Source: an uncultured Oceanisphaera sp. (GTDB lineage Bacteria; Pseudomonadota; Gammaproteobacteria; Enterobacterales; Aeromonadaceae). From it: 64,000 nt of DNA. Position numbers and translations under genes: made by a program. The first letter of the stretch is position 1, and each line of letters opens with the position of its first letter. Shown here piece after piece: positions 13,202 to 54,867 of this stretch. The notes below the pieces were generated by a model that saw only the letters and a program-made list of their open reading frames with translations, did no database searches and had not been told where the DNA came from. The stretch is taken from assembly GCF_947495715.1 (NCBI RefSeq), contig NZ_CANLZU010000003.1, positions 124,001 to 188,000 of the forward strand. Reading direction: 5' to 3'.

Positions 13202-13470
13202 GGCCAAAGGGTCCGACTCCGCCGACACGCCGTAAACCCCTCCCTGGGGGCTCAACCGCGCCATCCTTGGCGCAGATGGTCGGCTGAGCAGATCCCCTTG
13301 TCCTCCTGCAAGCTTCTCCATGCCTGTTAGTGTCACCGGCAGACGACTCAAGAGTTAAAAGGAGACAGCAGGGATTGCCTCAGCCGACCGTCACATGACA
13401 GGGATGTCATGTGCTGAGCGCCACAAGGATGTGCTTGAAGCGGGTCGGAGGAGGCAACCCTGTTGCCTCC
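13202..13470 (+). repeat. Composite interspersed repeat, copy A (type I then type II)
   Basis: Fills the gap between the convergent nfuA and gpsA genes. The type I module (13202-13306) has outer arms GGCCAAAGGGTCCGACTC and the partner ending GATCCCCTTGTCC. Its inner hairpins are CCCC-TCCCT-GGGG and GCGCC-ATCCTT-GGCGC. The type II module (13361-13470) has arms GGAGACAGCAGGGATTGCC and CAACCCTGTTGCCTCC. Its inner hairpins have stem CACATGAC with loop AGGGAT and stem CAC with loop AAGGAT. Type II read forward resembles type I read backward, so the element is an inverted pair. No protein is encoded. Confidence 0.85.
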
Positions 13471-13534
13471 TAGCTTCGATACGCTAGATAAACCTGACTT
13501 GTGACGCAAAGATAGGCTTATCGCTTGCGGCACG

Positions 13535-14539
13535 TTATTCCGTCTTGCGATCCCGGCTCAGCAGGGCAATGGCCGCTTCTTTGGCATTCTTGCCCTGATA
13601 CAGCACCTGATAGACCTGCTCGCAGATGGGCATTTCCACGCTGTAACGGGCCGCCAGCTGATGTACTTCGGCGGCATTGCGATAGCCTTCCACCACCTGA
13701 CCGATGTCGGTCATGGCTGCCTGCACGTCCTGTCCCCGGCCGAGGGCCAGGCCAAAACGGCGGTTGCGCGACTGATTGTCGGTGCAGGTCAGCACCAGAT
13801 CACCCAGCCCCGCCATGCCCATGAAGGTTTCCTGTCTGGCACCCAGGGCCACGCCCAGGCGCTGCAGCTCCACCATGCCACGGGTAATCAGCGCGGTACG
13901 GGCGTTGGCACCGAAACCCAGGCCGTCGGCCAGGCCGGCACCGATGGCGATGACGTTTTTCACCGCCCCACCGAGTTGCAAGCCCACCATGTCGTCGTTG
14001 AGATAAACCCGGAACGAGCGATCACAGTGCACCAGATCCGCCAAGTCGCCGGCAAAATCATCGTCGGAAGACGCAAGAGAAATGGCGGTGGGTAGCCCCA
14101 TGGCCAGCTCTTTGGCAAAGGTCGGCCCCGACAAGACCGCCAGCGGGATCCGGTCACCCAGAATCTCTCGGGCCACATCCTGCAACAGGCTGCCGGAAGT
14201 AGGGTCCAGCCCCTTGGTGGCCCAGGCAACGCGGCTGTCTTTGCGCAAAAACGGCTTTATCTGTTTCAGCACATCGGCAAACACATGACTCGGCACCACC
14301 ACCAGCAGATCGCGACTGGCCTGCACCACCTGCTTCAGGCCGGCTTCGGGAATCAGGCTGTCGGGAAAGGTGGCATCGGGCAGAAAAACCTTGTTGCAGC
14401 GCTCAGTGGCCAGGGTCGCCACCTGCTCGGGCCTGTGACTCCACAGCAGGGTTCGGTGGCCATTACGCGCGATGGCAATGGCCAGTGCCGTACCATAGGA
14501 GCCGGCACCCAAAACCGAGATGGCGGCATCCTTATGCAT
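13535..14539 (-). CDS. gpsA: Glycerol-3-phosphate dehydrogenase [NAD(P)+]
   Basis: 334 residues. The N-terminal dinucleotide fold [10 protein letters not shown], the WATKGLD and LSGPTFAKE blocks, catalytic-site Lys in [13 protein letters not shown] and the [11 protein letters not shown] region identify GpsA. It makes sn-glycerol 3-phosphate from dihydroxyacetone phosphate for phospholipid synthesis. The start overlaps the secB stop by one base, giving a coupled secB-gpsA pair. Full length. Confidence 0.96.
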
Positions 14540-15021
14540 CAGGCATCCGCCTGCTGTTGCTGGGCACGCTGTACGTGGGCGGCAAACAGAGCATCGAAGT
14601 TCACCGGTGCCAGGTTCAGTTGCGGGAAGGAACCGCGACCCACCAGGCTGCCCACGGTTTCACGGGCATAGGGGAACAGGATATTGGGGCAGAAGGCACC
14701 CAGGCAGTGCGCCAGTTGCGGCTCGGCCATGTTGCCGATGGTAAAGATACCGGCCTGCTGAATTTCGCACAGGTACACGGTTTCGCCTTCGCCCATGTGG
14801 CAGGTCACGGTCAGGGTCAGTACCACTTCGAATACGTTGTCACCCAGACGGGCGCTCTTGGTATCCAGATCCAGTTTTACTTCGGGCTTCCATTCTTTCT
14901 GGAATACCAGCGGCGTGGACGGCGCTTCGAAGGACACGTCCTTCAGATAGACACGCTGGATCTGAAATTCAACCTGTTGCTGGGCCTCGGTGTTGGCGGC
15001 GCCGTTTTCTGTTTCAGCCAT
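14539..15021 (-). CDS. secB: Protein-export chaperone SecB
   Basis: 160 residues, usual SecB length. The block [16 protein letters not shown] near the N-terminus and [22 protein letters not shown] in the second half are family hallmarks. The homotetramer keeps preproteins unfolded and hands them to SecA. Translationally coupled to gpsA, and 31 bases downstream of yibN. E. coli has grxC between yibN and secB; it is absent here. Confidence 0.96.
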
Positions 15022-15052
15022 GAAGATATCCTTATTTTTATGCGTTGAAAGA

Positions 15053-15481
15053 TTAACGTTTGGTTACCGGCAGGTTCTGGGTACGCCAGTCGGCCATGCC
15101 GCCACGCAGGGCGTGAACCTGGTTGAAGCCGGCCTTGGTCAACAGACGACCGACACCGCTGGTGGTCATACCGGTTTCGCACACCAGTATGACCGGCTTG
15201 TCCTGGTATTTCTCGATCAGGTTCAGGTTATTGGCCTTGAGCTGAGCGGCAGGCACGTTGATGGCGCCGGCAATGTGGCCCTTGCGGAATTCTTCGGCGG
15301 CGCGAACATCCACCACCACGGCGTTTTGCTTGTTGATCAGTAATACCGCCTGCTGACTCGGTACTATCTGCACCTTGGTCAGTTTGGACATCAGGGTCAT
15401 GTAGATGATGACGGCAACCAGGCCCAGCCAGACCATGCTCAGCATGGGGTGACTGGCGGCAAAATCGAGGTACTCTTGCAT
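15053..15481 (-). CDS. yibN: Membrane-anchored rhodanese YibN
   Basis: 142 residues: one N-terminal membrane helix (about 12-31) followed by a single rhodanese domain. The active-site loop is CETGMTTSG with its Cys near residue 97; [22 protein letters not shown] is the typical rhodanese block. First gene of yibN-secB-gpsA, divergent from gpmI-envC, the same neighbourhood as in enterobacteria. YibN has been linked to the membrane insertion machinery; the sulfur substrate is not known. Confidence 0.9.
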
Positions 15482-15699
15482 AATGTTACTTCTTTAGAGT
15501 CAAAATACGGAAAAGCCCGAGTATACATGGGGCATCGGTAAATAACAGCAGCCCGAGTCCAATCACCCTTCTCCACCTTCGTGGCCGGAATTGCCGCCGG
15601 TGTTCGGCTGGAGACCAAATCGGCAACTGTAGTAAGATAAAGCCGGTTAAGCCGCCTCGACCCGTCTTTATACAACAAATAACAACATAGGTTTACACT

Positions 15700-17232
15700 A
15701 TGAACTCGACCAAAAAGCCCCTGGTTCTCATCATTATGGATGGATGGGGTTATAGTGAAAAAACGGAACATAACGCCATTCACACCGCGCATACTCCGGT
15801 GCTCGACGACCTGATGCAACACCGCCCCTCGATGCTGATTTCCACCTCCGGTCACGACGTGGGTCTGCCCGAAGGCCAGATGGGCAACTCCGAGGTTGGC
15901 CACGTCAACATCGGTGCCGGCCGCATCGTTTATCAGGATCTGACCCGCATCGACAAGGCCATCGAAAACGGGGATTTCTTCTCCAATCCGGTGCTGACCG
16001 CCGCCATCGACGGCGCCGCCGATCAGGGCAAGGCCGTGCATATCATGGGCCTGCTGTCGGCCGGTGGCGTACACAGTCATGAAGACCAGATAGCCACCAT
16101 GATCAACATGGCCGCCGAGCGCGGTGCCGAGCACATCTATCTGCATGCCTTTCTCGATGGCCGGGATGTCGCCCCCCGCTCCGCCCAGCCGTCCATCGAA
16201 CGTGTCGACACCCTGTTTGCCGACTTGGGTAAGGGTCGTCTGGCCTCGGTGGTGGGGCGTTACTTCGCCATGGACAGAGACAACCGCTGGGATCGGGTAC
16301 AAAGCGCCTATGATTTGCTGACCCAGGGCCGGGCCGAGTATCACAGTGCCACCGGTGTCGAGGCGCTGCAGGCCGCCTATGCCCGTGAAGAAAACGACGA
16401 ATTCGTCCAGACCACCACCGTCGGTGAGCCGGTTTCCATGCAGGACGGCGATGCGGTCATCTTCATGAACTTTCGTGCCGATCGGGCCCGGGAGCTGACC
16501 CGCGCCTTCGTGCAGGATGATTTCACCGGCTTTGAACGTACCAGCCGGCCGGCCCTGAGCAGCTTCGTGATGCTGACCGAATATGCGGCCGACATCGACA
16601 CGTCCTGTGCCTATCCGCCCGAGGCTCTGCCCAACACCCTGGGTGAATGGCTGGCCAAACACAACAAGACCCAGTTGCGTATCTCCGAGACCGAAAAGTA
16701 CGCGCACGTCACCTTCTTCTTCAACGGTGGCCGGGAAGCCTGCTTCGAGGGCGAACAGCGCGAGCTGATCCCCAGCCCCCAGGTGGCCACCTACGATCTG
16801 CAGCCGGAAATGAACGCCGAATTGCTCACCGACAAACTGGTGGCCGCCATCAAAAGCCAGGCCTATGACGTCATCATCTGCAACTACCCCAACGGCGACA
16901 TGGTCGGCCACACCGGGGTATTCGAGGCGGCGGTCAAGGCCTGTGAAGCCGTGGACACCTCCATCGGCCGGGTAGTGGAAGCGCTGGAACAAGTGGGCGG
17001 CGAAGCGCTGATCACCGCCGATCACGGCAATGCCGAGCAGATGGTCAATCCGGTCACCGGTCAGGTACAAACTGCGCACACCAACCTGCCGGTGCCGCTG
17101 ATTTACGTCGGCCGCGATGCGGTTCCGGCCGCCAAGGGCCGGCTGTCGGATCTGGCACCGACCATGCTGAGCCTGATGGGGATGGAAACACCGACGCAAA
17201 TGACTGGCAAGCCTCTGATGGTTCTGAAATAA
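15700..17232 (+). CDS. gpmI: 2,3-bisphosphoglycerate-independent phosphoglycerate mutase
   Basis: 510 residues. The metal-binding and catalytic blocks are present: IMDGWGYS, the catalytic-serine region [57 protein letters not shown] and TADHGNAE. It interconverts 3- and 2-phosphoglycerate using two manganese ions. The 218-base divergent region to yibN holds the promoters. EnvC begins 10 bases after its stop. Confidence 0.96.
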
Positions 17233-17242
17233 TCTAGCCCAT

Positions 17243-18469
17243 ATGGGCAAACAACGACTGATCGTTTCATTATTACTGCTAAGCACCGGCCTGATGGCCG
17301 GTGCTTTTGCTTGGGCGGATGACAGCAAGGATCTCAAGAACGTTCAGGGTCAGATTGCCAGTCAGAAACAGGACGTACAGCAACAGAAAAAACAGTTGAG
17401 CCAGCTGCAGCAGCAGCTCGCCCGGGATGAAAAGGCCATTTCCGCGGTGGCCCGGAAGCTGAATCAGACTCGGCACCAGCTGAAAGACAACGAGGCCGCC
17501 CTCGCCCGGCTGGACCAGGAACACCGCGCCCTGGGCAAACAGGCCGAGCAACAACAGCAGTTGCTGGCGGAACAACTCAGGGCCGCCTATCAGAATGGCC
17601 GGCACGACTACCTGAAATTGCTGCTCAATGGTCAGGACAGCACCGAGATAGACCGGTTGCTGCACTACTATGCCCACATTAATCAGGCGCGGGCCGACGC
17701 CCTGCAACAGCTGGCTCGTACCCGCGAGCAACTGGCCGACAACCGCCGTCGTGCCGAGCAGAGCCGCAACCAGCTCAACCAGCTATTAGCCCGGCAGCAG
17801 ACCGAACGACAAAAACTGAGCGAGCAGCAGGCCAAACGCAGCCAGACCGCCAAACAACTCAATGCGGCGCTGGATCGGAGCAATCAACGCCTGAACAATC
17901 TGCAACAGGCGGCCGGTCACCTGGAACGCCAGATCAAGGCCGCTCGGGAAAGAGCCGCCCGGGAACAGGCGGCGCGCGAACGAGCGGCCCGGGAACAGGC
18001 CGAACGCAACCGGCTCGCCCAACAACAGGGTGGCTCCGGCAGAACGCCGGTAGTCGCCAAAACCAGCGGCAACTTCGCCGGTCTGGCCAAGGGTACCCTG
18101 CCCTGGCCGCTCAAGGGGGCGCTTATCCATCGCTTCGGCTCTGCCCGCACCAGCCAGATGCACTGGAAAGGCCTGCTGATCGGCGCTCCGGTCGGCAAGG
18201 AAGTCAGCGCCATCGCAAATGGCCAGGTGGTGTACGCCGACTGGCTCAGCGGTTTCGGCATGGTGATGGTGATCGATCACGGCAAAGGCTTCATGAGCCT
18301 CTATGGCCATAACCAATCGCTGCTGCGCAACCCCGGTGACGAGGTCAAGGCCGGCCAGCCCATCGCGCTGAGTGGCGAAAGCGGTGGCCAGGACAAGGCC
18401 GGCCTCTACTTTGAAATTCGTTATCAGGGCAAGGCCATCGATCCCCAGCCCTGGCTGGCACGAGGCTGA
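17243..18469 (+). CDS. envC: Murein hydrolase activator EnvC
   Basis: 408 residues: signal peptide (cleavage near AFA), a long glutamine-rich coiled coil (about 30-260, with repeated RERAAREQA units near 240-255) and a C-terminal LytM/M23 domain (about 285-405). The domain is degenerate as in EnvC: an HWKGLLIGAP segment stands where active peptidases bind zinc. EnvC is recruited by FtsX to activate amidases at the septum, and ftsEX lies 7 kb away in this window. Co-transcribed with gpmI. Confidence 0.93.
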   Translation: MGKQRLIVSLLLLSTGLMAGAFAWADDSKDLKNVQGQIASQKQDVQQQKKQLSQLQQQLARDEKAISAVARKLNQTRHQLKDNEAALARLDQEHRALGKQAEQQQQLLAEQLRAAYQNGRHDYLKLLLNGQDSTEIDRLLHYYAHINQARADALQQLARTREQLADNRRRAEQSRNQLNQLLARQQTERQKLSEQQAKRSQTAKQLNAALDRSNQRLNNLQQAAGHLERQIKAARERAAREQAARERAAREQAERNRLAQQQGGSGRTPVVAKTSGNFAGLAKGTLPWPLKGALIHRFGSARTSQMHWKGLLIGAPVGKEVSAIANGQVVYADWLSGFGMVMVIDHGKGFMSLYGHNQSLLRNPGDEVKAGQPIALSGESGGQDKAGLYFEIRYQGKAIDPQPWLARG

Positions 18470-18488
18470 CGTTAACGCTAGCCTGCCA

Positions 18489-18740
18489 CTAGCAGGTCGC
18501 CGCTTCCAGTTCGTCAATCAGCCACAGCGCCTCGGCCTGACTGGTGCCGCACACGTCGGCCATGGCCTTGAAGGTGCCGCACACCGCCGGCCGCTCCGGC
18601 TTGCCAAACAGCGCACAGCGCATATCCTCCAGCAGATGCAGACAGGGCTCGCCGGCGGCCTTGCCATCGGGCATACCCGGCAGCGGGCCGCTGATACTGG
18701 GGGCGATACAGCAGGCACCGCAATTACTTCGACATTCCAT
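18489..18740 (-). CDS. YkgJ-type cysteine cluster protein
   Basis: 83 residues with eight cysteines: CRSNCGACC at the N-terminus, then C near 33, 42, 54, 64 and at the C-terminus. It resembles the YkgJ/UPF0153 family of small putative Fe-S or zinc-binding proteins (GKAAGEPCLHLLEDMRCALF, PAVCGTFKA blocks). Convergent with envC, 19 bases apart. Function unknown. Confidence 0.82.
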   Translation of the reverse strand: MECRSNCGACCIAPSISGPLPGMPDGKAAGEPCLHLLEDMRCALFGKPERPAVCGTFKAMADVCGTSQAEALWLIDELEAATC

Positions 18741-18858
18741 TACACGACCTCTCGACTTGGCCGAGCAGTATAACGGCTCGCGGCCGCCCGCAGTAGTGGG
18801 GAGTCAAGGCCGGCGGATTGGTATAAAATGGCGTTTTTCATCACACTGGATGTTTACC

Positions 18859-19236
18859 ATGCGCCTGACCGTTCACTGCCTGGAGCAACTGCCGGCCATT
18901 CATCGTCACCACGCCGACATCATACTGCAGGGCAGAGCCCTGCCCGAGCAGGCGGTATTTTATCTCGCCACCTTTAACGACAGGGCTGTGGCTCTGGCCT
19001 GGCGACAGCAGGAGCGAATCGACTTTATCGCGGTACGCGACATTACCCGCCGCCGGGGCATAGGCCGGGAGCTGTTGCGCCAGATCCGACAGGAAGCCCG
19101 GGCCGCCGGCCTGACCCGACTCGACTGCAACCCGGCCCAGGCGCCGGAAGAACAAAGAGCCGGACTGGCCGCCTTTTTAACCAGCCAGGGCTTCAGCACC
19201 CAGGCGGGACTGCTAAGCTGTTGCCTAGACAAATAA
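18859..19236 (+). CDS. panM: GNAT-family PanM/PanZ, PanD maturation factor
   Basis: 125 residues. A reduced GNAT fold with acetyl-CoA loop RDITRRRGIGRELLRQI and the C-terminal block GLTRLDCNPAQAPEE. It matches the small PanM family that triggers self-cleavage of aspartate decarboxylase PanD and restrains it when CoA is abundant. ATG at 18859 is used; an in-frame ATG at 18850 is possible. fumC begins 24 bases downstream. Confidence 0.75.
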   Translation: MRLTVHCLEQLPAIHRHHADIILQGRALPEQAVFYLATFNDRAVALAWRQQERIDFIAVRDITRRRGIGRELLRQIRQEARAAGLTRLDCNPAQAPEEQRAGLAAFLTSQGFSTQAGLLSCCLDK

Positions 19237-19260
19237 AGGTCAACAGCAAAGGAGGCGGTG

Positions 19261-26739: not shown

Positions 26740-28395
26740 TTATTCTTCCTGACTGAAAAGAGCGTCGATGAATTCCCGGGAATTGAAGGGCCGCAAATCG
26801 TCGATTTTTTCGCCCACGCCGATGTAACGAATGGGAATACCGAACTTGTCTGCCACCGCAAAAATAACCCCACCCTTGGCGGTACCGTCCAGCTTGCTCA
26901 GGGTGATACCGGTAATAGGCACCGCCTCGTTGAACACCTTGGCCTGACTCAGGGCGTTCTGGCCGGTACCGGCATCCAGCGTCAGCATGATCTCGTGCGG
27001 CGCGGCGCCGTCGATTTTCTGCATCACCCGCACGATTTTCTTCAGCTCGTCCATCAGGTGTGCCTTGTTCTGCAGACGACCGGCGGTATCGGCAATCAAG
27101 ACGTCGACCTTGCGCGCCTTGGCGGCCTCGACCGCATCGAAAATCACCGACGCGGCATCGGCGCCGGTATGCTGGGCAATCACCGGAATATCGTTACGCT
27201 CGCCCCACACCTGCAACTGCTCTACCGCCGCGGCGCGAAAGGTATCGCCGGCAGCCAGCATCACCGACTTGCCCTCGGCCTGGAACTGACGCGCCAGCTT
27301 GCCGATGGTGGTGGTCTTGCCGACGCCGTTGACGCCGACCATCAGGATCACGTAAGGCTTGTGCTCGCTGTCGACAACCAACGGCTGGTCGACCTTGTCC
27401 AGGATGGCGGCCATCTCTTCTTTCAGCAGCTCATAAAGCGCCTCGCCGTCTTTCAGCTGACGGCGGCTGGCCTGACGGGTCAGGTTGTCGATAATCGACA
27501 GGGTAGTTTCCACGCCCAAGTCCGCCGTCAGCAGCTGGGTTTCCAGCTCTTCGAACAGCTCGTCGTCAATTTTCTTGCCGCTGAACAGACCAAAGAAGCC
27601 GGAACCCAGATTTTGCCGGGTTTTCAGCAAGCCCTGCTTGAGGCGAGCGAAAAAGCCCTTTTTGGGCGCCTTTTCGGCCTTTTTGGCAGACGCTTCGGCT
27701 TCCTCCGCCAACCGGGCCTGCTCCGCCGCTTCTTCTTCGGCGGCGAGACGCGCTTCTTCTTCCACCGCCTGCCGTGCTTCCTCTTCCGCACGAGCCAGCG
27801 CGTCGGCTTCTTCCGCCAGACGGGCCTGTTCGGCTGCTTCGGCTTCTGCCGCCAGGCGGGCCTGCTCGGCTGCCTCGGCTTCCGCCGCCAGCCGGGCCTG
27901 CTCGGCCGCTTCGGCTTCCGCTGCCAGACGAGCCTGCTCGGCCGCTTCGGCTTCCGCTGCCAGCCGGGCCTGTTCGGCCGCTTCGGCTTCCGCCGCCAGC
28001 CGGGCCTGTTCGGCCGCTTCGGCTTCCGCCGCCAGACGGGCCTGTTCGGCTGCCTCGGCTTCCGCCGCCAGACGGGCCTGTTCGGCCGCTTCGGCTTCCG
28101 CCGCCAGCCGGGCCTGTTCGACTGCCTCGGCTTCCGCCGCCAGACGGGCCTGCTCGGCCGCTTCGGCTTCGGCCGCCAGACGGGCCTGTTCGGCCGCTTC
28201 GGCTTCCGCCGCCAGACGGGCCTGCTCTGCTGCCTGAGCTTGCTGCTCCTGCAGCGCCTCTTCCACTTCTGCCGTACCGGATTCAACTTCCGATTCAATC
28301 GCCGGCTGCTCGGCCTGTTTTTGCTCTTCTGCTAGGTCCTGCTGATCTTTGTTTTTGCCAAAGCCCAGCCAGGAGAAAAAACCTTTTTTCGCCAT
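26740..28395 (-). CDS. ftsY: Signal recognition particle receptor FtsY with long repeat domain
   Basis: 551 residues. The C-terminal NG domain (about 250-551) holds GVNGVGKTTTIGKLA, DTFRAAAVEQL, DTAGRLQNK and TLSKLDGTAKGG. This GTPase docks ribosome-SRP complexes at the membrane. The N-terminal acidic A domain is unusual: about 12 tandem copies of a 12-residue unit (EQARLAAEAEAA), encoded by 36-base DNA repeats at about 27815-28245. The start MAKKGFFSWLGFGK resembles that of other FtsY proteins. First gene of ftsYEX, divergent from rsmD. Confidence 0.95.
   Translation of the reverse strand: MAKKGFFSWLGFGKNKDQQDLAEEQKQAEQPAIESEVESGTAEVEEALQEQQAQAAEQARLAAEAEAAEQARLAAEAEAAEQARLAAEAEAVEQARLAAEAEAAEQARLAAEAEAAEQARLAAEAEAAEQARLAAEAEAAEQARLAAEAEAAEQARLAAEAEAAEQARLAAEAEAAEQARLAAEAEAAEQARLAEEADALARAEEEARQAVEEEARLAAEEEAAEQARLAEEAEASAKKAEKAPKKGFFARLKQGLLKTRQNLGSGFFGLFSGKKIDDELFEELETQLLTADLGVETTLSIIDNLTRQASRRQLKDGEALYELLKEEMAAILDKVDQPLVVDSEHKPYVILMVGVNGVGKTTTIGKLARQFQAEGKSVMLAAGDTFRAAAVEQLQVWGERNDIPVIAQHTGADAASVIFDAVEAAKARKVDVLIADTAGRLQNKAHLMDELKKIVRVMQKIDGAAPHEIMLTLDAGTGQNALSQAKVFNEAVPITGITLSKLDGTAKGGVIFAVADKFGIPIRYIGVGEKIDDLRPFNSREFIDALFSQEE
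27815..28245. repeat. 36-base tandem repeats inside ftsY
   Basis: About 12 tandem 36-base units, near-identical with scattered third-position differences, encode the EQARLAAEAEAA array of the FtsY A domain. Such arrays can expand or contract by slippage, and copy number may differ between strains. The antisense open frames here are by-products of the repeat. Confidence 0.9.
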
Positions 28396-29403: not shown

Positions 29404-29857
29404 CGGCCTTATACCAATCCCAGTAATGATCTGATCATATTGAGGCCCTAGACCAGAGGCAACACAGCCGCCTCCCTCGACACGCCATGGATAATGACAC
29501 TCACCGTTTCAGCCGCTGCGAACATTCACTGGATGTTCGGTCAGGCTGAAACCGTTCGTCACGGCGAGGCAAGCTCGCCCCATCTAAGCTCGGACATGCC
29601 GTCTGACCGCCAGGGAGGGCGGGAATGCCGGAACGGCAGGAGCATTTTTCGGCCTTGGCATTTGACGATCGGCTGAGGCAATCCCTGCCGCCTCTTCTTG
29701 ATGCCTGAGTTAGCTGTTGTCATAACAAACAGGCGACGCCGGAGCTTCAAGGAGGACAAAGGGATCCGCTCAGCCGACCTTTCGTTTCAGGGATGAAACG
29801 GAGAGCGTACATGGAGGTATTCATAGCGAGTCGGTGGAGCGGGCCCTTTGGCCGATA
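29404..29857 (-). repeat. Composite interspersed repeat, copy B (inverted orientation)
   Basis: Between convergent genes for the DUF1145 and DUF2007 proteins. The tail (29404-29455), read in reverse, is nearly identical to the tail of copy E for about 60 bases. The enlarged type II module (29456-29694) contains nested hairpins, including GTTTCAGCC/GGCTGAAAC around GAACATTCACTGGATGTTC, and CCGCC-AGGGAG-GGCGG. The type I module (29751-29857) has arms GGACAAAGGGATCCGCTC and GAGCGGGCCCTTTGGCC, inner hairpin GTTTC-AGGGAT-GAAAC and a second hairpin TAC-ATGGAG-GTA. Polarity is opposite to copies A, C and E. Confidence 0.85.
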
Positions 29858-30246: not shown

Positions 30247-30273
30247 TATGCTCCGGCGCCGGAATGACAGATA

Positions 30274-30545
30274 GAAAAAGGGGGTGACATCATGTCACCC
30301 CCTTTTGGGTTGTCGTATGGTTAATCCGTAAACCAAGTTGCTCCCTGCATTCCCTGACAAAATTACCTTATCCTTAAGGTGTTCCTCTTCCCGATCCATC
30401 GGGGTGTCCTGGTCGTCCTGACTGCGATTCATCCTGAGTCGCTTGACTATCTCCATCCTGGAGGTGTCCTTGACCGCATCCTGCGGGGTTCCTTTTGCCG
30501 TTCCTGGCAGCCTGTCTTCCTGACCGACTTCCTTGCTCCTTGCAC
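30274..30545 (-). ncRNA. csrB: CsrB-type CsrA-sequestering regulatory RNA
   Basis: About 272 nt on the minus strand with 18 GGA triplets, many as CAGGAUG, CAGGAC, AAGGA or CAGGAA between short stems, the pattern of CsrB/CsrC RNAs that titrate CsrA. A promoter is visible (TTGAGC, 16 bases, TATAGT at 30551-30578). The 3' end is a strong hairpin, GGGGGTGACAT/ATGTCACCCCC, followed by five T. A GacA/UvrY-type box lies about 157 bases upstream of the start. Expected role: antagonist of CsrA in carbon storage, motility and biofilm control. A 91-codon open frame inside it is judged spurious. Confidence 0.92.
30281..30306 (-). terminator. Terminator of csrB
   Basis: Perfect inverted repeat GGGGGTGACAT/ATGTCACCCCC with A-run and T-run on both sides; it forms the 3' hairpin of the CsrB-type RNA. 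Confidence 0.92.
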
Positions 30546-30550
30546 TACTA

Positions 30551-30578
30551 ACTATAGATAACTTTGCCAAAGGCTCAA
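30551..30578 (-). promoter_or_regulatory. csrB promoter
   Basis: Minus-strand TTGAGC (-35, 30573-30578) and TATAGT (-10, 30551-30556) with a 16-base spacer just ahead of the GGA-rich RNA. The weak -35 fits a promoter that depends on an activator. Confidence 0.7.
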
Positions 30579-35551: not shown

Positions 35552-35599
35552 TACCAAACAGCTTAAATAACTGATCTATTCGGTTACTCTGTAGAGGTC

Positions 35600-35994
35600 G
35601 AACAAAGGGACCGCTCCACCGACACGCTACAAGTACATCCATGTAAGGCTCCGCCGCGCCATCCCTGGCGCGGAGGGTCGGCGGAGCAGATCCCTTTATC
35701 CTCCCTGAAGCCAGGGAGTTGCCTGTTGGCGTCGTCTACAGGCAACTCGGTGCAAGAGAAGAGGCAACAGAGATCGACTACCACGACCGTGAAATGCCAT
35801 GGACGGCATTTCCAAGCCCCCAGGGGGCAGCTTGCTGCCTGCATCAAGTTTGGTGATGGACCAAACATCCAGTGAATGTTTGCAGCCATCGCCAAGCGCA
35901 GATGGCCTTAGCCCATGGCGTGTCGTGGGAGGCGGCTGTGTTACCTCTGATCTCGGGGTTAAAATGATCAGATGTTTATTCAAACTGGTATTAC
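35600..35994 (+). repeat. Composite interspersed repeat, copy C
   Basis: Between the convergent NSS transporter and oligopeptidase genes. The type I module (35600-35704) has arms GAACAAAGGGACCGCTC and the partner ending GATCCCTTTATCC. Its inner hairpins are TAC-ATCCAT-GTA and CCGCGCC-ATCCCT-GGCGCGG. The spacer carries the hairpin GAGTTGCCTGT/ACAGGCAACTC. The type II module (35761-35947) starts GAGGCAACAGAGATCG and ends GGCTGTGTTACCTC; it holds ATGCC-ATGGAC-GGCAT and a roughly 80-base insertion. The tail aligns with the tails of copies B and E and with the remnant at 53.2 kb. Confidence 0.85.
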
Positions 35995-42153: not shown

Positions 42154-42557
42154 GAGGCAACAGGGCTGCCTCACCCGACTCGCTACGGGAAAATGACACT
42201 CGTTGTTTCAGCTTACTGCGAACATTCACTGGATGTTCGGTCAAGCTGAAACAACTCGTCTCGGCAAGACAAGCTTGCCCCATCTAAGTTCACACATGCC
42301 ATCTGACCGCCAGGGATGGCAGGAATGTCGGAACGGCAGGAGCATTTTCCGGCCTTGGCATGTGATGGTCGGGTGAGACAATCCCTGTTACCTCCTCTCA
42401 ACGCCCGAGTTGGCTGTCGGCGGCACCAGAAGCTAACTCCGATGCATCAAGGAGGACAAAGGGATCTGCTCCGCCGACCTTCTGTTTCAGGGATGAAACA
42501 GAGAGCGTACAAGGATGTATCTATAGCGAGTCGGCGGAGCGGGCCCTTTGTCCGATA
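42154..42557 (-). repeat. Composite interspersed repeat, copy D (inverted orientation)
   Basis: Between the convergent SirB2 gene and the frameshifted gene. The enlarged type II module (42154-42394) has arms GAGGCAACAGGGCTGCCTC and CAATCCCTGTTACCTC, the nested GTTTCAGCTT/AAGCTGAAAC hairpin and GCC-AGGGAT-GGC. The type I module (42451-42557) has near-perfect arms GGACAAAGGGATCTGCTC and GAGCGGGCCCTTTGTCC. Its inner hairpins are CTGTTTC-AGGGAT-GAAACAG and TAC-AAGGAT-GTA. The latter reads GTACAAGGATGT, a full match to the CsrA SELEX consensus. Confidence 0.87.
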
Positions 42558-47565: not shown

Positions 47566-47586
47566 TACGACTCCTCACAAAATTGA

Positions 47587-48625: not shown

Positions 48626-48791
48626 TTATCCGGGTCACCAACCTGGATAACTGTACTTCGAAAGCAATCTAGGGTCTCGAGTAATATTAAATCCCCGAAA
48701 ACCTTAAAAACCCAGCATTGATTAACCAATGTTTGATATCGCTCGCGTTATTGCATTATTGCCGAATGAAAGCGTGAGCACTCTCACATCG

Positions 48792-49910
48792 CTACAGGGC
48801 GATATCCACCCATACCAGCCGGTGATCCGAGCTGTCCTTGCGCTCCGGCCAACCCCGCCGGTTCCAGAACAGTTCGCCGTCCGTTTCGCCAGGGGCTTGC
48901 CAGTAAACGCCACTGGCCAGTGCCTGCAGGCTGCGCCCCGGCAACACATAATCGAGCCGCAACCCCTGACTGTGGGTCCAGAAACGCGGCGATCCCCGCC
49001 GCGATGACATGCCTCGCAGCGCAAAGCCGCCGCGTGAGGCGGGTCGCAGCCGGCCAAGGGCCACACTGCGATTAAGCGCCGTGTCGGCCAGCAAGGCCTG
49101 AATGCCCGCACGAAAACCATCGCCATCCTGCGGATCCGCATTCAGATCCCCGAGGATCACGAAGTCCGACCCGGGATCCAGCCCGCCCCGGTTACCCGCG
49201 TCATCCACCAGATAGTCACCACGTCCGGGGCTCACATAGTCATGCCACAGGCGCAGCTCGTCGTGATTGCGGCAGCTGTTTCGTCGCTCCGGGCCTTCGT
49301 CGATGGGCGGCGCCGGATGGCAGGCCAGCAGATGCAGCACCCGGCCATTGGGCAGGCGCACCGGCAGGTCGAGATGATTCTTGGACGACAGCGGCAACAC
49401 CGCCAACGCCTCGGCGCCGTAATAGCTGCCGGACTCGGTCATCGGCAGGCGGGCACCGGGCATGTTCCGCCATAAAAAACTTTGAAAACTGCGCATTCGA
49501 TCGAATAACAACGGAAAACGCGACAACACCGCAAAGCCGTACTGACCGTGAAAGGCGCCAAAGCCCAGGCCGTCACCGGGCAGCGTCGGGATGCCCGCGC
49601 CATGTAACGCCACCGGGGCCAGCAAACCGGTATTGGTGGGCACCAGATAGCGATAGGGGTACTCGATGCCCCGCTCGCCGACGGCCAGGTAGTCGGCACA
49701 AAACCGCCGCAGGTGATGGTCGTCACGGCTTTCGCCGTCGTGATCAAACTCGTTCAGCAGCAACACATCGGGCCGGATATGCTGCACAATACGGGCGATA
49801 TTCCGCGGCTGGCGGTGGCCCGCCGCCAGATCGGCCGCCAATTGTCCCGGCCGGGCGCGATCCAGCGCCACATTAAAGGTGGCAACTCTCACTTTTGAAA
49901 ACGACATCAT
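48792..49910 (-). CDS. Endonuclease/exonuclease/phosphatase-family protein
   Basis: 372 residues of the EEP superfamily. Active-site blocks: VRVATFNVALD, VLLLNEFDHDG, LLACHPAPP, VILGDLNADPQDG and the terminal SSDHRLVWVDI. No signal peptide is evident, so it is probably cytoplasmic. The superfamily includes nucleases and sphingomyelinase- or inositol-phosphatase-like enzymes; the substrate is not predictable. The start MMSFSKVRVATFN has only a weak ribosome site. Confidence 0.85.
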   Translation of the reverse strand: MMSFSKVRVATFNVALDRARPGQLAADLAAGHRQPRNIARIVQHIRPDVLLLNEFDHDGESRDDHHLRRFCADYLAVGERGIEYPYRYLVPTNTGLLAPVALHGAGIPTLPGDGLGFGAFHGQYGFAVLSRFPLLFDRMRSFQSFLWRNMPGARLPMTESGSYYGAEALAVLPLSSKNHLDLPVRLPNGRVLHLLACHPAPPIDEGPERRNSCRNHDELRLWHDYVSPGRGDYLVDDAGNRGGLDPGSDFVILGDLNADPQDGDGFRAGIQALLADTALNRSVALGRLRPASRGGFALRGMSSRRGSPRFWTHSQGLRLDYVLPGRSLQALASGVYWQAPGETDGELFWNRRGWPERKDSSDHRLVWVDIAL

Positions 49911-49983
49911 GTAGCTGGCTTGCCTTTATTGTTCAAACTGTCATCATTCTTGTATTAATCGCTGTTTTTCAAGGATGAAAACG

Positions 49984-50277
49984 ATGTTCGGCACCATAAG
50001 TCTGATTTCGCTGGCGCTATTTGGCCTGCTGTATGCGCTGCGCCGCCGCCAGGAAAGCTTTTTGATCACCATAGAGGGTGTCCACCTCAATGTGAAACGG
50101 GGACAACCACCCCAGACGCTGATCCGCCATTGCCAACAGCTGATGCAGGATGCCCGCACCCTCAAGGGTACCATTCGCGGCTTCAGGAAAGGTGACGGCG
50201 TAGTGCTCAGTTGCTCGCGCAGCATTCCCGCTTCCTACCGCCAGGACATTCACCTGTTCTGGCAGCAGCAGTCTTGA
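49984..50277 (+). CDS. DUF3634 membrane-anchored small protein
   Basis: 97 residues: one N-terminal helix (about 3-17), then a basic soluble domain with GVHLNVKRGQPPQTLIRHCQQLM and GVVLSCSRSIPASYRQDI, matching DUF3634 of Vibrio and Aeromonas relatives. The ATG at 49984 is chosen because AAGGA lies eight bases ahead; the ATG nine bases earlier sits on that site. Function unknown. Confidence 0.78.
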   Translation: MFGTISLISLALFGLLYALRRRQESFLITIEGVHLNVKRGQPPQTLIRHCQQLMQDARTLKGTIRGFRKGDGVVLSCSRSIPASYRQDIHLFWQQQS

Positions 50278-50408
50278 ACAGCCAATCATATCGAGCTGCC
50301 ATAATGATCAATCACAGCCCGAAATCGGCCTCAAATTTGCCCCGGCACTCTTGACCTGAACCCGATTTCCCGCTTTGCTGGTGATATTACTCTTGATGAG
50401 GTTTAACG

Positions 50409-51071
50409 ATGAAATTATATCCCCTGTTACTCTGTGGTCTGCTGGCCGCCTGTTCGAGTCAGCCTGAGGTCGAACAGGCCGAGAAGCCGACCCCCGCCAC
50501 CAGCAGCCAGTCTCCCCAGGAAATTACTCCCAAGGGAGAATTTGCCCAGATTGATGTCAGCCGCTCCCAGCAGGCGATGGACGCCATTACCAGCGGTAAT
50601 GCCGATACCATCAACGAGATACTGAAAACGCCCAACGAATACGCGCCACCGGTGCTGTATCTGATGTCGGCCATCATGTTCGACAACGACTATCAGGATC
50701 AGGCCACCTTCTGGTATTACGCCGCCCAGCTGCGGGCGCGCAGCGACGCCAACAAATCCGGCGACGACACCGCCCACACCGCCGTTAATCAGCTTAATCA
50801 ACGCTTTGGTGTTCGTATTGCCCCTTATTCCATGAGCAACCCCCAACGACTGCAAGGCATCGTCAGCCAGGTGCTGGAATGGGACAGCGAACAGAGCCGC
50901 AGCTACGATCCGCGCTGGATTGCCCTGCAGGGTAAAGACGTGGTCACCGAGACCAAAGTCGACTTCGCCCCTCGTGAAAGATGGCAGGAAATCGACGCCC
51001 TGACCCGCGGCCAGTTCCGCCAGGGACTGGAACAGGCGCTGACCAAGTTACGCGAAGCCCCGGCCCAGTAA
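50409..51071 (+). CDS. Lipoprotein of unknown function
   Basis: 220 residues with a lipoprotein signal and lipobox LAAC at Cys15, then a Pro/Ser/Glu-rich linker. The rest is a helical domain: AMDAITSGNADTINEILKTPNEYAPPVLYLMSAIMFDNDYQDQATFWYYAAQLRARSDAN, resembling small Sel1/TPR-like helical repeats. GAGG precedes the ATG. I do not recognise a named family. Single gene. Confidence 0.75.
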   Translation: MKLYPLLLCGLLAACSSQPEVEQAEKPTPATSSQSPQEITPKGEFAQIDVSRSQQAMDAITSGNADTINEILKTPNEYAPPVLYLMSAIMFDNDYQDQATFWYYAAQLRARSDANKSGDDTAHTAVNQLNQRFGVRIAPYSMSNPQRLQGIVSQVLEWDSEQSRSYDPRWIALQGKDVVTETKVDFAPRERWQEIDALTRGQFRQGLEQALTKLREAPAQ

Positions 51072-51252
51072 CACCGCCTCTTTACCGCTTTCACTCACAT
51101 CCCGGTCTTTACCGGGATGTTTTATTTTGTGACCCTGATAATCTATCGCTCATTGCGAAAGGCGGCGTCACCATCGACCCTCGTCGATTTACACTCCGCC
51201 TTGCACCGCGAACTCGTTGAATTACCTACCAGGATCACAGGAGATCACCTTA

Positions 51253-51933
51253 ATGAACGCGTCGTCCCATCATCCGGTTCACGTCTGGGACTGGTCCATC
51301 CGCCTTTTTCACTGGAGTCTGCCGCTACTGCTGTTTTTGCTGTGGCGCTCGGCCGGCGAGGATATGGATCAGCACATGCTGTTCGCCCAGCTGCTGCTGG
51401 GGTTGCTGCTGTATCGCATTATCTGGGGCTTTATAGGCACCCCTTATGCCCGTTTCAGCCATTTTATCTACCATCCGGGCCGGATCATCGGCTACCTGCG
51501 CGCCAGCCTCACGCCGCACAAGCCGGTGTATCTCAGCCATAATCCGCTCGGCGGCATCATGGTACTGGTGATGCTGGCTACCCTGCTGTTTCAGGCCGGT
51601 ACCGGCCTGTTCGCCACCGACGACATCTTTTATGAAGGGCCCCTGTATCGCTACGTATCGGGCGCCACCGTCAGCTGGATGACCGACTGGCACAAGTCCT
51701 GGTTTTATGACGGCTTGCTGCTGATTATCGGGCTGCACGTGCTGGCCATCGCCCTGTATCGACTGCGCGGAGAAAACCTGGTCAAGCCCATGCTCACCGG
51801 TCATAAAGAGGCCCCGATCAATCGCGTGGCCGATCGGCTGGAGCGCCATCCGCAGGCCTTTCCCTGGCTGCGCTGCATGCTGTCTGCCGCGCTGGCGGCC
51901 GGCACCATCTGGGCGCTGTTCAACGCCGTCTGA
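51253..51933 (+). CDS. Cytochrome b561-family membrane protein
   Basis: 226 residues with four core helices. Haem-ligand histidines are expected in VWDWSIRLFHWSLP (about residues 10-20) and in the last helices (TDWHKSWFYDGLLLIIGLHVLAIALY). The YRIIWGFIGTPYARFSHF block is typical of di-haem cytochrome b561 proteins. It is convergent with a cytochrome c' gene 60 bases away, a common pairing in which it passes electrons to a c-type cytochrome. AGGAG precedes the start at 51253. Confidence 0.88.
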   Translation: MNASSHHPVHVWDWSIRLFHWSLPLLLFLLWRSAGEDMDQHMLFAQLLLGLLLYRIIWGFIGTPYARFSHFIYHPGRIIGYLRASLTPHKPVYLSHNPLGGIMVLVMLATLLFQAGTGLFATDDIFYEGPLYRYVSGATVSWMTDWHKSWFYDGLLLIIGLHVLAIALYRLRGENLVKPMLTGHKEAPINRVADRLERHPQAFPWLRCMLSAALAAGTIWALFNAV

Positions 51934-51948
51934 TTTCCGCTATCGAAT

Positions 51949-51980
51949 ACAAAAAAGGAGCCTTACGGCTCCTTTTTTGT
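51949..51980. terminator. Bidirectional terminator between the two cytochrome genes
   Basis: ACAAAAAAGGAGCC/GGCTCCTTTTTTGT near-perfect inverted repeat. Confidence 0.9.
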
Positions 51981-51995
51981 ATTCTAACATACCGC

Positions 51996-52454
51996 TTAAT
52001 CGCGATAGTCGTCGTGGCAGGCTTTACAGCCTTTCATCACCTTGCCCACGGCAGCACGGGCCTGGGCTTCATCGAAGCCCGGCTCGCCAGACACCGCAAT
52101 CAGCTCTTGCAGCGCACTGCCAAAGGCCTTGCCCTTGGCACTGAAACCGTCCATGTCTTCCCAGGCGGCGGGCAGCATGTTGCTGTCGGCAACGCCCTCG
52201 GTGGCCGGTACATAGGTTTCACCCAGCAGCTTGCCGACATTGCCCATGTTCAGCGCCCGCTGATGCAGTGCCTCACCATCGAAGTCGATTTCGCCTTTCA
52301 CCATGGCGCCCATCACCTTGGCCTGCGCGCCCATCACCTGATAGATGGACTGACGATACTTGACCAGATCATCCGCCTTGAACAACTCAGACTGGGCGGC
52401 AACACTGGTGGCGAACACGCCCCCCATGGCCAGCAGCACGACTTTTTTCAGCAT
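51996..52454 (-). CDS. Cytochrome c' (class II c-type cytochrome)
   Basis: 152 residues with a signal peptide (cleavage after VAA, about residue 20) and a four-helix bundle whose C-terminus carries the haem site CKACHDDYRD. The block YRQSIYQVMGAQAKVMGAMVKGEIDFD is typical. Periplasmic; the family binds NO and can protect against nitrosative stress. Convergent with the cytochrome b561 gene. Confidence 0.93.
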   Translation of the reverse strand: MLKKVVLLAMGGVFATSVAAQSELFKADDLVKYRQSIYQVMGAQAKVMGAMVKGEIDFDGEALHQRALNMGNVGKLLGETYVPATEGVADSNMLPAAWEDMDGFSAKGKAFGSALQELIAVSGEPGFDEAQARAAVGKVMKGCKACHDDYRD

Positions 52455-52569
52455 TTTTTGCTCCTTTTTCGTTATTTTTCAGTACTCATAAACAGCTTCA
52501 CAGCAATTAGCGGTTTACGGTAAACCATCGAATCAGGCAACGCCACCAGCAAAAAGTGAAGTTGCGACG

Positions 52570-53079
52570 CTACTCCTGATTAACCCAGATGAGGCCATCG
52601 GTAGCAAAGCCCCGCTCTTGAGCCTGAGCCACAAAACGGGCCTTCAATTCCGGGCTGACTATCGGGTCGCGCGCCAGCAGCCACAGATAATCGTGGTTAT
52701 AGCCGGACACAAAGGCATGCCGGTAGTCATCATCCAGCTCAAACACCACGTAAGAGCCGTAGAAGGGACCGAAAAAAGACACCTTCAGATAAGCCTCCTG
52801 CTCATCATTCACAAAATAGGCTTTGCCTTCCGCCGCCTTCGGCTCTCCGCTTTGTGCATCGACCCCCCGGTTGATCACGCGAATACCGCCATCTTCACGT
52901 GGCTGATATTCGGCACTCACTCGCTCCAGCCCTCGCTCAAAGGAGTGATCCAGCCGGGCCACCTCATACCAGGTGCCCAGATAACGCTCGGAGTCGAAAT
53001 TGTTGACCGGCGTTACCCCGTCCGGCATGCCCATGCAGCCGGACAGCAGCCCAACCAGAAACCAGCTCAGTATTCGCAT
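52570..53079 (-). CDS. blc: Outer-membrane lipocalin Blc
   Basis: 169 residues with lipobox LSGC at about Cys15 and the lipocalin signature FDSERYLGTWYEVARLDHSFERGL. The end, YNHDYLWLLARDPIVSPELKARFVAQAQERGFATDGLIW, matches bacterial Blc. It binds lysophospholipids or fatty acids on the inner leaflet of the outer membrane. The ATG at 53079 is chosen because the lipoprotein signal begins there. Confidence 0.92.
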   Translation of the reverse strand: MRILSWFLVGLLSGCMGMPDGVTPVNNFDSERYLGTWYEVARLDHSFERGLERVSAEYQPREDGGIRVINRGVDAQSGEPKAAEGKAYFVNDEQEAYLKVSFFGPFYGSYVVFELDDDYRHAFVSGYNHDYLWLLARDPIVSPELKARFVAQAQERGFATDGLIWVNQE

Positions 53080-53173
53080 CCTTTTTCTCCTTGACGTCGT
53101 CACCGCAGATCGGCTCGAAGACGTGTTTCTGCAATTCACAAACCTCGCAACAGCCTAGGCAGAAAGACGCCGA

Positions 53174-53256
53174 AGCCCAGTGGCGTGTCGTGGGAGGTGA
53201 CTCTGTTTCCTCTCGTGTGCAGCTTTGAAATAGATCATATTTTTATTTAGATTCGT
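53174..53256 (+). repeat. Remnant of a composite repeat (type II end plus tail)
   Basis: GGCGTGTCGTGGGAGG followed by a CTGTTTCCTC end matches the right arm of the type II modules of copies C and E. The following AT-rich tail aligns loosely with the tail of copy C. No left arm is present, so this is a solo fragment. The rest of the gap up to the universal stress gene shows only promoter-like AT-rich sequence. Confidence 0.6.
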
Positions 53257-53362
53257 ATCATTCGGCAGCTGACCACAAACTCGGCAATCATCTGCAATAC
53301 TGTCAGAAGCAACAATATTCCCGTAAGAAAACATTATCTTCCACCGATAAGGAACTACCAGG

Positions 53363-53779
53363 ATGTACAAACAACTCATGATCCCTGTCGATCTGGCTCA
53401 TGTTGAGCGGCTCGAAAAAGCCCTGCAAACCGGCGCTGACCTGGCCAAACTTTATAACATACCGGTCTGTTATATCGGGGTGTCGGCCAGCGCCCCTAGT
53501 GCCGTGGCGCATAACCCCGCCGAATTCAACGCCAAAATGCAGAAGTTTGCCAAGGATCAGGCAGAGAAGTACGGCCTGAAAAACGTCAGCAGTAGCGCCT
53601 GTATCAGCCCTGACCCGGCAGTAGATCTGAACAAGACCCTGCTGCAGGCGGCTAAAGATAATGGCGCCGATTTGGTGGTGATGGCCTCCCATGTACCCGG
53701 CCTTCTCGAGCACCTTTTCGCCTCCAATGCCGGCTATTTTGCTTCCCATTCCGATGCCTCCGTACTGGTGGTACGCTAG
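53363..53779 (+). CDS. Universal stress protein, UspF/G type
   Basis: 138 residues of the Usp fold. N-terminal YKQLMIPVDLAHVERLEKAL; C-terminal block GADLVVMASHVPGLLEHLFASNAGYFASHSDASVLVVR, where the nucleotide-binding G-2X-G-9X-G(S/T) pattern is replaced by a SH-x-P form typical of the UspF group. Cytoplasmic stress protein. AAGGA precedes the start. Confidence 0.88.
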   Translation: MYKQLMIPVDLAHVERLEKALQTGADLAKLYNIPVCYIGVSASAPSAVAHNPAEFNAKMQKFAKDQAEKYGLKNVSSSACISPDPAVDLNKTLLQAAKDNGADLVVMASHVPGLLEHLFASNAGYFASHSDASVLVVR

Positions 53780-53865
53780 AGGGCACCCCATCACTATATA
53801 GAATTTCGCCACCCCAACAGCATCTGGTCACCTGATGACCCATGATTTTCTTCCTGACTGGTATA

Positions 53866-54438
53866 TTACGGCTTGGTGCACTGCGCCAGTAGCTTGACGA
53901 AAAAGTCGCTGCCCTTGCGGCGGGCAAACTGGATATTGCGCTCGGGAATGGACTCGGGATCGTCATAGCTGGCCAGCGCCTGCTCCATGCTGGCTTCGCG
54001 GATCAGGTGCAGAGTGGGATAAGGCGAGCGGTTGGTGTAGTTGGCCGCATCATCCTGGGGTTCGCCGGCGAAGCAATAGTCGGGATGAAAACTGGCCAGC
54101 TGGTATTTTCCCTCGAAGTCCTGCTCGAACAGCGCGTCGTTGGCCATGTCGACCAGATCCAGGTAGGCGTAAAAACCCTCGAAACCACGCGGCAGGATCA
54201 CCAGGGTGGTTTCCACCTCCGGCTGCTCGTCCAGCAACACGCATTCGGCCAGCAGCGCCTGCAGCACCGCCTTGGGTTTGTGCTCTTCCACCGCCACATA
54301 ACGAATGCTGGCTCGCTCCACTTCCCGCCGGGCAAAGGGGCAGAGGTTGTACTTCATGATCACCTGTTTCACCCAGTTGGCGGTGTGCTCTATGTACTGC
54401 GCCTGTTCTGATTGCGTGTGTTCTGACTGTTCTGACAT
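53866..54438 (-). CDS. DUF1415 family protein
   Basis: 190 residues. NWVKQVIMKYNLCPFARREVERASIRY near the N-terminus and LPRGFEGFYAYLDLVDMANDAL, LASFHPDYCFAG and TNRSPYPTLHLIREASMEQAL are DUF1415 blocks. Soluble, function unknown; it is usually a single gene in gammaproteobacteria. Copy E of the composite repeat lies in its upstream region. Confidence 0.88.
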   Translation of the reverse strand: MSEQSEHTQSEQAQYIEHTANWVKQVIMKYNLCPFARREVERASIRYVAVEEHKPKAVLQALLAECVLLDEQPEVETTLVILPRGFEGFYAYLDLVDMANDALFEQDFEGKYQLASFHPDYCFAGEPQDDAANYTNRSPYPTLHLIREASMEQALASYDDPESIPERNIQFARRKGSDFFVKLLAQCTKP

Positions 54439-54551
54439 GACTCATTTCTCTTTCTGTTTCGACTCATCCGGCCGGAAAATTCATCCGCCCGCGACCATAA
54501 TTATACCCATCACATTAAACATTCGATCTTTTTGACTGCGATATCAATCTC

Positions 54552-54867
54552 GGACAAAGGGCCCGCTTCACCGACTCGCTCAAGCACCTCCCTGTGACGC
54601 TCAGCACATGACATCCCTGTCATGTGATGGTCGGCGAAGCAGATCCCTTCGTCCTCCTTGAAGCTCCGGCGTGGCCTGCAGGCGCCGTCTACAGGCAACT
54701 CGATGCTCGAGAAGAGGCAACAGAGATCGGCTACCTCGACCGTAAAATGCCAGGGACGGCATTTCCGAGCCCCCATGGATGGGTTCATGGCGTGTCGAGG
54801 GAGGCGGCTGTGTTGCCTCTGATCTGAGGCCTTAATATGACCAGATCATTACTGGGATTGGTATAAG
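54552..54867 (+). repeat. Composite interspersed repeat, copy E
   Basis: The only copy between tandem (both minus) genes. The type I module (54552-54657) has arms GGACAAAGGGCCCGCTTC and the partner ending GATCCCTTCGTCC. Its inner hairpins are CAC-CTCCCT-GTG and stem CACATGAC with loop ATCCCT. That last stem is identical to the type II stem of copy A, with the loop complemented. The type II module (54714-54819) starts GAGGCAACAGAGATCGG and ends GGCTGTGTTGCCTC, with ATGCC-AGGGAC-GGCAT and CCC-ATGGAT-GGG. The tail ends GGGATTGGTATAAG, as in copy B. Confidence 0.87.

Follow-up and report, generated by a model that had tools for sequence, protein, structure and literature searches.

In the Csr/Rsm system the loop recognised by RsmE is ANGGAN, in which the A and the GGA are contacted and the N positions are variable, and the consensus obtained for CsrA by systematic evolution of ligands by exponential enrichment (SELEX) is RUACARGGAUGU. 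A CsrA dimer bridges sites 10–63 nt apart with an optimum above 18, and residues L4 and R44 of CsrA are termed critical (all in the accessible part of PMC7652899); the accessible part of PMC6028588 places ANGGA sites ~10–55 nt apart. TwoAYGGAY (RF01731) has two AYGGAY-loop hairpins in one structure and was proposed on motif grounds to bind CsrA (excerpt of PMC4333381); it is listed from human gut, gamma-proteobacteria and Clostridiales (excerpt of PMC2864571). Repetitive extragenic palindromic (REP) units are described, in an excerpt of PMC2817692, as short hairpins with GTAG/GTGG-type heads. The DNA considered here is a stretch of 64,000 nt from an uncultured Oceanisphaera sp. (contig NZ_CANLZU010000003.1, positions 124,001 to 188,000), hereafter the window, which carries five dispersed repeats (A to E) with hairpins presenting GGA loops of the CsrA type.

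Sequence comparison within and between genomes establishes that these repeats contain a widespread, high-copy fold with two Csr-type loops, which is selected on one strand and mobile in this genus. The reading favoured here, with moderate confidence, is that the five repeats belong to a large dispersed family of elements built from a structured RNA module, that a module reached by read-through would bind one CsrA dimer, and that the copies would act as local 3' sites and as a dispersed pool beside the small RNA (sRNA) CsrB.

Loops, stems and strand of the module

Folding and comparison indicated that an intact module is ~105 nt long, with a long outer stem, an inner stem and then two short C(ANGGAN)G hairpins. 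The outer stem is of type 1 (GGACAAAGGG...CCCTTTGTCC) or type 2 (AGAGGCAACAG...CTGTGTTGCCTCT). A covariance model, R1, was built from 44 modules of this genome, which holds at least 150 modules (R1 matched 150/150 scored candidates); all counts of modules per genome are lower bounds.

Among 104 distinct modules of this genome, 191 hexaloop hairpins were found, with GGA in all 191, the first A in 190 and a closing C-G pair in 189, while both N positions use all four bases. Seventeen further hairpins fall outside the hexaloop count, ten having another loop length (all with GGA), six carrying insertions and one being lost. The set from other genera comprised 105 modules from 63 of the 64 named loci searched, out of at least 113 fetched; the loci left out of the 113 were not picked by a preset rule, and many of them were short or cut at an edge. 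In this set GGA was present in 100/102 first hairpins without insertion (three more have insertions) and in 41/42 of the second hairpins whose sequence the search pattern had not prescribed. The distance from GGA to GGA was 18–22 nt in 97/97 modules of this genome and 19–22 nt in 100/100 from other genera, so that all 197 modules measured lie within the 10–63 nt bridged by a CsrA dimer. Because similarity or R1 served to find the modules, these figures are biased toward kept loops. The modules share with Csr/Rsm sites the ANGGAN hexaloop closed by C-G, and on this comparison their fixed letters and spacing are those of such sites.

Some first hairpins bear an insertion, often a GCTCCTGC stretch followed by GCCATCCNTGGC; read from the opposite strand, the latter forms a GGA hairpin. 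This insertion recurs across genera (window 29440–29700 and 42155–42405; loci L145, L155, L174 and L192).

A single CsrA match, in which L4 and R44 are both present, was found in this genome, which also has CsrB. It is very unlikely, in our view, that the module instead serves another protein that reads GGA loops, or just one of the CsrA paralogues. Such a paralogue could be accommodated by the two or three CsrA family matches of some repeat-bearing genomes, but loop, closing C-G pair and spacing coincide with the Csr/Rsm rules, and we know of no other GGA-loop-reading protein of this kind.

The stems were compared in alignments of two sorts, A2 and A3 being fitted to R1, a model from this genome, and A1 being aligned by sequence alone; A2 was drawn from 64 of the 113 loci. 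In the R1-fitted alignment across genera, 95.5% of cells were paired (59.2% when shuffled), two-sided changes numbered 1159 (313 when shuffled), and the covariation score was 0.817, against 0.168 when shuffled and at most 0.116 with slid partners. Little can be concluded from the count of pairs that show a two-sided change, as 32/34 is close to the 28.6 obtained on shuffling. In A1, 92.3% were paired vs 77.3%, 18/35 pairs had a two-sided change vs 12.7, and the score was 0.386 vs 0.141. Among copies of the Xanthomonas, Stenotrophomonas and Microbulbifer modules the outer stems are often quite different and the loops are the same. As judged from these alignments, compensatory changes have rewritten the stems, and A-N-GGA-N has been kept.

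RNA tolerates G·U pairs, which appear on the opposite strand as A·C. Stems were accordingly read without a structure model, from pattern hits, with G·T and A·C treated alike. In 63 distinct stems G·T was counted 92 times and A·C 34 times (p = 2e-7, a value which, like the other p-values given here, is optimistic because copies within a genome are related), with 39 modules leaning to G·T and 6 to A·C; 435 control hairpins in the same loci gave 905 and 992, respectively. The 33 fetched loci not used in this first test gave 56 G·T vs 8 A·C (28 modules vs 1), and all 113 loci together (101 stems) gave 148 vs 42, the extended test having dropped 20 of 121 pattern hits in which no outer stem was above the score limit. 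Model-based counts of G·T to A·C concur (30:8, 134:23 and 100:15). This excess on the GGA strand suggests that selection acts on that strand in single-stranded form, for which RNA is the simplest candidate, although the selected molecule may instead be single-stranded DNA.

Copies in the window and in other genomes

An element typically consists of a type 2 module in antisense, a linker and a type 1 module in sense, with A, C and E lying on the minus strand and B and D on the plus strand. The 58 distinct elements of this genome include 42 dimers of '-+' order, none of '+-' order, 15 with one module and one '++'; the gap between modules is 53–56 nt in 37/43, and type 2 is paired with type 1 in 40 of the 42 dimers compared, two of which are copies from the window. 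As the GGA modules of a dimer point outward, a transcript from either side would meet a GGA-loop module last. The features of the window are as follows:

13141–13170, strand not assigned: intrinsic terminator of nfuA, between nfuA and element A, with an A-run before the stem and a T-run after it
13200–13306, minus strand: left module of element A, type 1, loops CAAGGATG and CAGGGAGG; R1 97.3 bits
13361–13469, plus strand: right module of element A, type 2, loops CAGGGATG and CAAGGATG; R1 84.9 bits
29411–29700, minus strand: left end and left module of element B, type 2, insertions in both hairpins; terminal inverted repeat TACCAATCC at 29412
29751–29855, plus strand: right module of element B, type 1, loops CAGGGATG and CATGGAGG; R1 104 bits
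30270–30577, minus strand: CsrB sRNA, CsrA antagonist, outside the repeats; Rfam RF00018 94.7 bits, gathering score 71
35598–35704, minus strand: left module of element C, type 1, loops CAGGGATG and CATGGATG; R1 101.3 bits
35760–35947, plus strand: right module of element C, type 2, first loop CATGGACG, second hairpin with an insertion of ~80 nt; R1 66.6 bits
42155–42405, minus strand: left module of element D, type 2, both hairpins interrupted; the insertion bears CAGGGATG on the plus strand at 42311
42451–42555, plus strand: right module of element D, type 1, loops CAGGGATG and CAAGGATG, full GTACAAGGATGT at 42507; R1 113 bits
54550–54657, minus strand: left module of element E, type 1, loops CAGGGATG and CAGGGAGG; R1 87.2 bits
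54713–54819, plus strand: right module of element E, type 2, loops CAGGGACG and CATGGATG; R1 106.2 bits
54820–54865, strand not assigned: outer end of element E, terminal inverted repeat GGATTGGTA at 54855

Eight of these modules were matched by R1 on the GGA strand with 66–113 bits; on the other strand it gave five weak mirror matches of 14–28 bits. The ninth and tenth are the left modules of B and D, whose two hairpins both carry insertions and in which no C(ANGGAN)G hairpin loop is formed on the strand of the module.

Both strands of the window hold 14 exact C(ARGGAT)G strings, nine of them inside the five repeats, which make up just 2.7% of the bases (binomial P = 1.6e-11). An earlier note on this DNA had counted at least nine exact hexaloops, three each in A and D and one each in B, C and E, and all nine were recovered where it had placed them: on the plus strand at 13399 and 13424 (A), 29788 (B) and 42311, 42488 and 42510 (D), and on the minus strand, by low coordinate, at 13262 (A), 35660 (C) and 54612 (E). 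A stem of at least 3 pairs (range 3–9) lies under 9/9 of the exact loops inside the repeats and 1/5 of those outside; when the loop is relaxed to C(ANGGAN)G and the stem must have at least 4 pairs, 11 are inside and 2 outside. The note was also right that a sequence in copy D fits the whole CsrA consensus, GTACAAGGATGT at 42507–42518 being the sole full RUACARGGAUGU match within the window, and the CsrB-type RNA which it saw at 30274–30545 is the RF00018 match listed above. Other parts needed amendment. Its five repeats are real, but the units are module pairs, so that element A begins at 13200 and not at 13361. All three D loops are present; the one at 42311 sits in a nested insertion and is on the plus strand, the left module of D being on the minus strand. 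The strict count undercounts loops, because ATGGAT, AGGGAC and AGGGAG occupy equivalent positions, and the five copies are a small sample of a much larger family. A remnant at 53179–53218, which resembles the 3' arm of the type 2 outer stem (family D4), is apparently a decayed copy. A separate array of a 36-nt repeat, with at least 14 overlapping copies, was seen at 27655–28338 inside a minus-strand open reading frame (ORF) at 26740–28395.

Modules were found in 23/23 genomes of the genus searched and in 29/41 relatives, two other genera of the same family having at least 62 and at least 17. A search at the level of the order gave modules in 64/295 genomes and 17/99 genera, and one at the level of the phylum in 28/398 genomes, all 28 within the Gammaproteobacteria. 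The exact 30-base pattern of the second hairpin matched at least 113 stretches in named genomes, including Xanthomonas, Stenotrophomonas, Microbulbifer, Marinobacter, Halopseudomonas, Oceanisphaera, Zobellella, Rheinheimera and Shewanella; in O. arctica (L142) an almost identical type 2 module has the same flank. Plasmid records searched with a 61-nt core gave no match. The arrangement in other genera comprised 39 single modules, 16 '-+', 3 '+-', 2 '++' and 3 longer clusters, one Xanthomonas locus (L160, 2486–3354) having six alternating modules of two sub-families, each on one strand.

A tandem arrangement of six one-strand modules, at ~227 nt per unit and with 12 GGA loops in a row, was also observed (genome G490; L271 919–2157). 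The array of L271 lies upstream of and antisense to an ORF at 2296–3294, of solute-binding type by eye. It is possible that this six-module array is a stand-alone CsrA sponge gene.

Mobility, neighbouring genes and transcription

Many copies in the genus are bounded by terminal inverted repeats, TACCAATC...GATTGGTA, which were found at both ends in 17 of 41 dimers, at one end in 13 and at neither in 11. In 12 of the 17 both-ended dimers the flanking 3-mers are identical, being TTA, TAA or TGA, where shuffling gives a mean of 4.9 (p = 1e-4). Inverted ends with a target-site duplication, as in miniature inverted-repeat transposable elements (MITEs), are therefore present on part of the copies, and empty sites occur in relatives. 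In the relative G013, two of the four comparable gaps (A and B of A–D) are empty, with the aligned flanks separated by just 33 and 7 nt; gap C holds a single module in another strand arrangement and gap D a remnant of 40 bits. An element follows nfuA in 2/15 genomes of the genus with this locus (this genome and G010), with fragments seen by eye in two more, and a similar terminator hairpin follows nfuA in all 15 (by eye). The inverted ends and TNA duplications on many copies suggest that the family has spread in this genus as MITE-like elements, and the empty and altered sites between genomes suggest that positions turn over, though not at every site.

These observations would also suit purely selfish or neutral MITE-like elements, in which the folded module has no part in the Csr system and serves the element itself, for example as a structure in single-stranded DNA or RNA to which a transposition or host factor binds. 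This explanation appears unlikely. Movement driven by terminal inverted repeats needs no interior, yet loops and stems are kept; the Xanthomonas, Stenotrophomonas and Microbulbifer modules differ in their outer stems but share the loops; and the letters which are fixed are those of the Csr loop.

With respect to neighbouring genes, the 58 elements are flanked by convergent genes in 27 cases, by tandem genes in 26 and by divergent genes in 4, with one unknown; gene calls in these loci were made by a simple codon score. Compared with the gaps of the window, which include the repeats' own gaps, convergent sites are enriched (27/57 vs 12/61, p = 0.002) and divergent sites depleted (4/57 vs 13/61, p = 0.04). 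Other gaps of at least 60 nt in the same loci were convergent in 2 cases, tandem in 10 and divergent in 12. Clusters in other genera were tandem in 45 cases, convergent in 13 and divergent in 5, with 10 at an edge. A terminator-like site between the stop codon and the element was found in 8/81 cases, where shuffles expect 2; within 150 nt, such sites occur at 11/85 element-facing ends, 16/68 other transcript ends and 4/41 operon-internal ends. No terminator was seen by eye on the gpsA side of copy A. It is plausible from this arrangement that transcripts read through into most copies.

The same context could be explained if the repeats were messenger RNA 3'-end elements of the REP type, or of the bacterial interspersed mosaic element (BIME) type, whose long stems block exonucleases or aid termination and whose loops are of minor importance. 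The convergent excess, the scarcity of divergent sites and the terminator-like sites at element-facing ends agree with such a role, as do the terminator-like sites held inside the modules of 20/58 elements under a loose rule for either strand without a shuffled control. Nevertheless, such elements would not fix A-N-GGA-N in two loops under stem drift. A terminator-like site follows the module in 1/104 cases (shuffled 2), single modules are equally often antisense, and convergent sites do not dominate in other genera (13/63 classified), so that this role is considered quite unlikely to account for the family.

Own promoters for the modules were considered and rejected, since no enrichment was found and the linkers inspected differ between genera. 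One promoter-like site was seen at the left end of element B (29462–29434, minus strand).

Proposed role and comparison with known systems

Under the favoured reading, in which the repeats supply CsrA sites, neighbouring transcription would run through an element and RNA from either side would show one GGA-loop module. The transcribed module would then bind one CsrA dimer across its two loops, as its match to the Csr/Rsm hairpin suggests. By a further step, the host transcript might gain a CsrA site locally, close to the 3' end, and the many copies taken together might form a dispersed pool of CsrA sites competing with messenger RNA targets, beside CsrB. Binding of CsrA by the modules is likely on these grounds, and local effects in the 3' untranslated region (UTR) and pool-wide titration of CsrA are possible.

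Several observations weigh against this reading. CsrA is present in 64/64 repeat-bearing genomes, but also in 286/295 genomes of the order searched, so that co-occurrence of repeat and CsrA is uninformative, and CsrA presence was dropped as a test. A genus of the same family, g20, has CsrA but gave no module in 15 genomes searched with R1. The SELEX hairpins have mostly at most 4 pairs (in the accessible part of PMC7652899), whereas the first hairpin in the window has mostly 7–9, and affinity might be lower as a result. Promoter-like sites beside modules were at or below the shuffled level (sigma-70 consensus only). The nfuA side of copy A is shielded by the terminator at 13141–13170; the earlier note's proposal that convergent read-through would end in a GGA-loop module agrees with the outward dimers (42/58 '-+', 0 '+-') and the few intervening terminators (8/81), but at copy A this terminator comes first. 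Positions of copies are often not kept between species, which speaks against a gene-specific 3' UTR role, and single modules with tandem neighbours in other genera showed no preference for sense (11 sense vs 16 antisense). The earlier note's reading of the elements as possible CsrA-binding or CsrA-titrating 3' UTR sites is supported in part.

First-look candidates in g20 were about as numerous as in this genome, which may reflect a real absence or a diverged form missed by R1.

A bolder extension, which we regard as doubtful, is that mobile high-copy RNA elements have made many gammaproteobacterial genomes dispersed CsrA sponges, with hundreds of paired modules that each catch one CsrA dimer on transcription from either side, CsrA availability tracking read-through across the genome and transposition handing 3' CsrA sites to genes. 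Should CsrA indeed bind the modules, a large class of binding sites in many gammaproteobacteria would be absent from tallies of CsrA sites per cell and from models of the balance between CsrA and CsrB. The family would then be a transposable element spreading a defined RNA–protein binding module, and affinity work would gain a small natural ligand with two CsrA sites, available in a great many evolutionary variants.

As far as searched, the repeat family is undescribed in Rfam and the literature. A scan of the window at the Rfam gathering scores gave only CsrB, and 18 named loci gave only RNase P. In seven loci examined up to E = 5, weak Ysr224 matches lay opposite modules in four (L128, L273, L183 and L160); this identity was rejected, the matches being probably generic because miRNA models score higher on the same hairpins (L128). 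In the accessible full texts, with subscription papers mostly outside the search, no description of the repeat was recognised, the retrieved parts of PMC9788540 and PMC4383904 being on other subjects.

REP/BIME elements and their associated RAYT transposases resemble the family in high copy number, intergenic position, inverted pairs and alternating arrays (compare Xanthomonas L160). The modules differ in having ~105 nt and a two-hairpin junction, as opposed to the short GTAG-type REP unit. A RAYT/REP origin was rejected, given this difference and the fact that neither of the genome's two Y1_Tnp matches has a module within ~1.5 kb on each side. MITEs with a 3-bp TNA duplication, which we take to be IS5/IS1031- or PIF-like, share with the elements the terminal inverted repeats, the lack of a recognised internal gene and the empty gaps in a relative. 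However, the interior here is a conserved structured RNA, present also in other genera, where no such ends were seen by eye.

The sRNAs of the CsrB/RsmZ type (RF00018 and kin) are alike in having several GGA-loop hairpins and binding CsrA dimers. They are single genes with their own promoter and terminator, whereas the modules are dispersed pairs with a long closing stem, with neither promoter enrichment nor a following terminator; RF00018 matched the window only at 30270–30577, and element D gave no match up to E = 1. The RF01731 model had no match in this genome, the control genomes being equally silent, and it was absent from the matches of element D up to E = 1 and of the seven loci up to E = 5. 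The accessible descriptions of TwoAYGGAY contain no high-copy paired repeat such as that formed by the modules; with two GGA-loop hairpins per structure and its proposal as a CsrA ligand, it is nonetheless the nearest precedent for the family described here.

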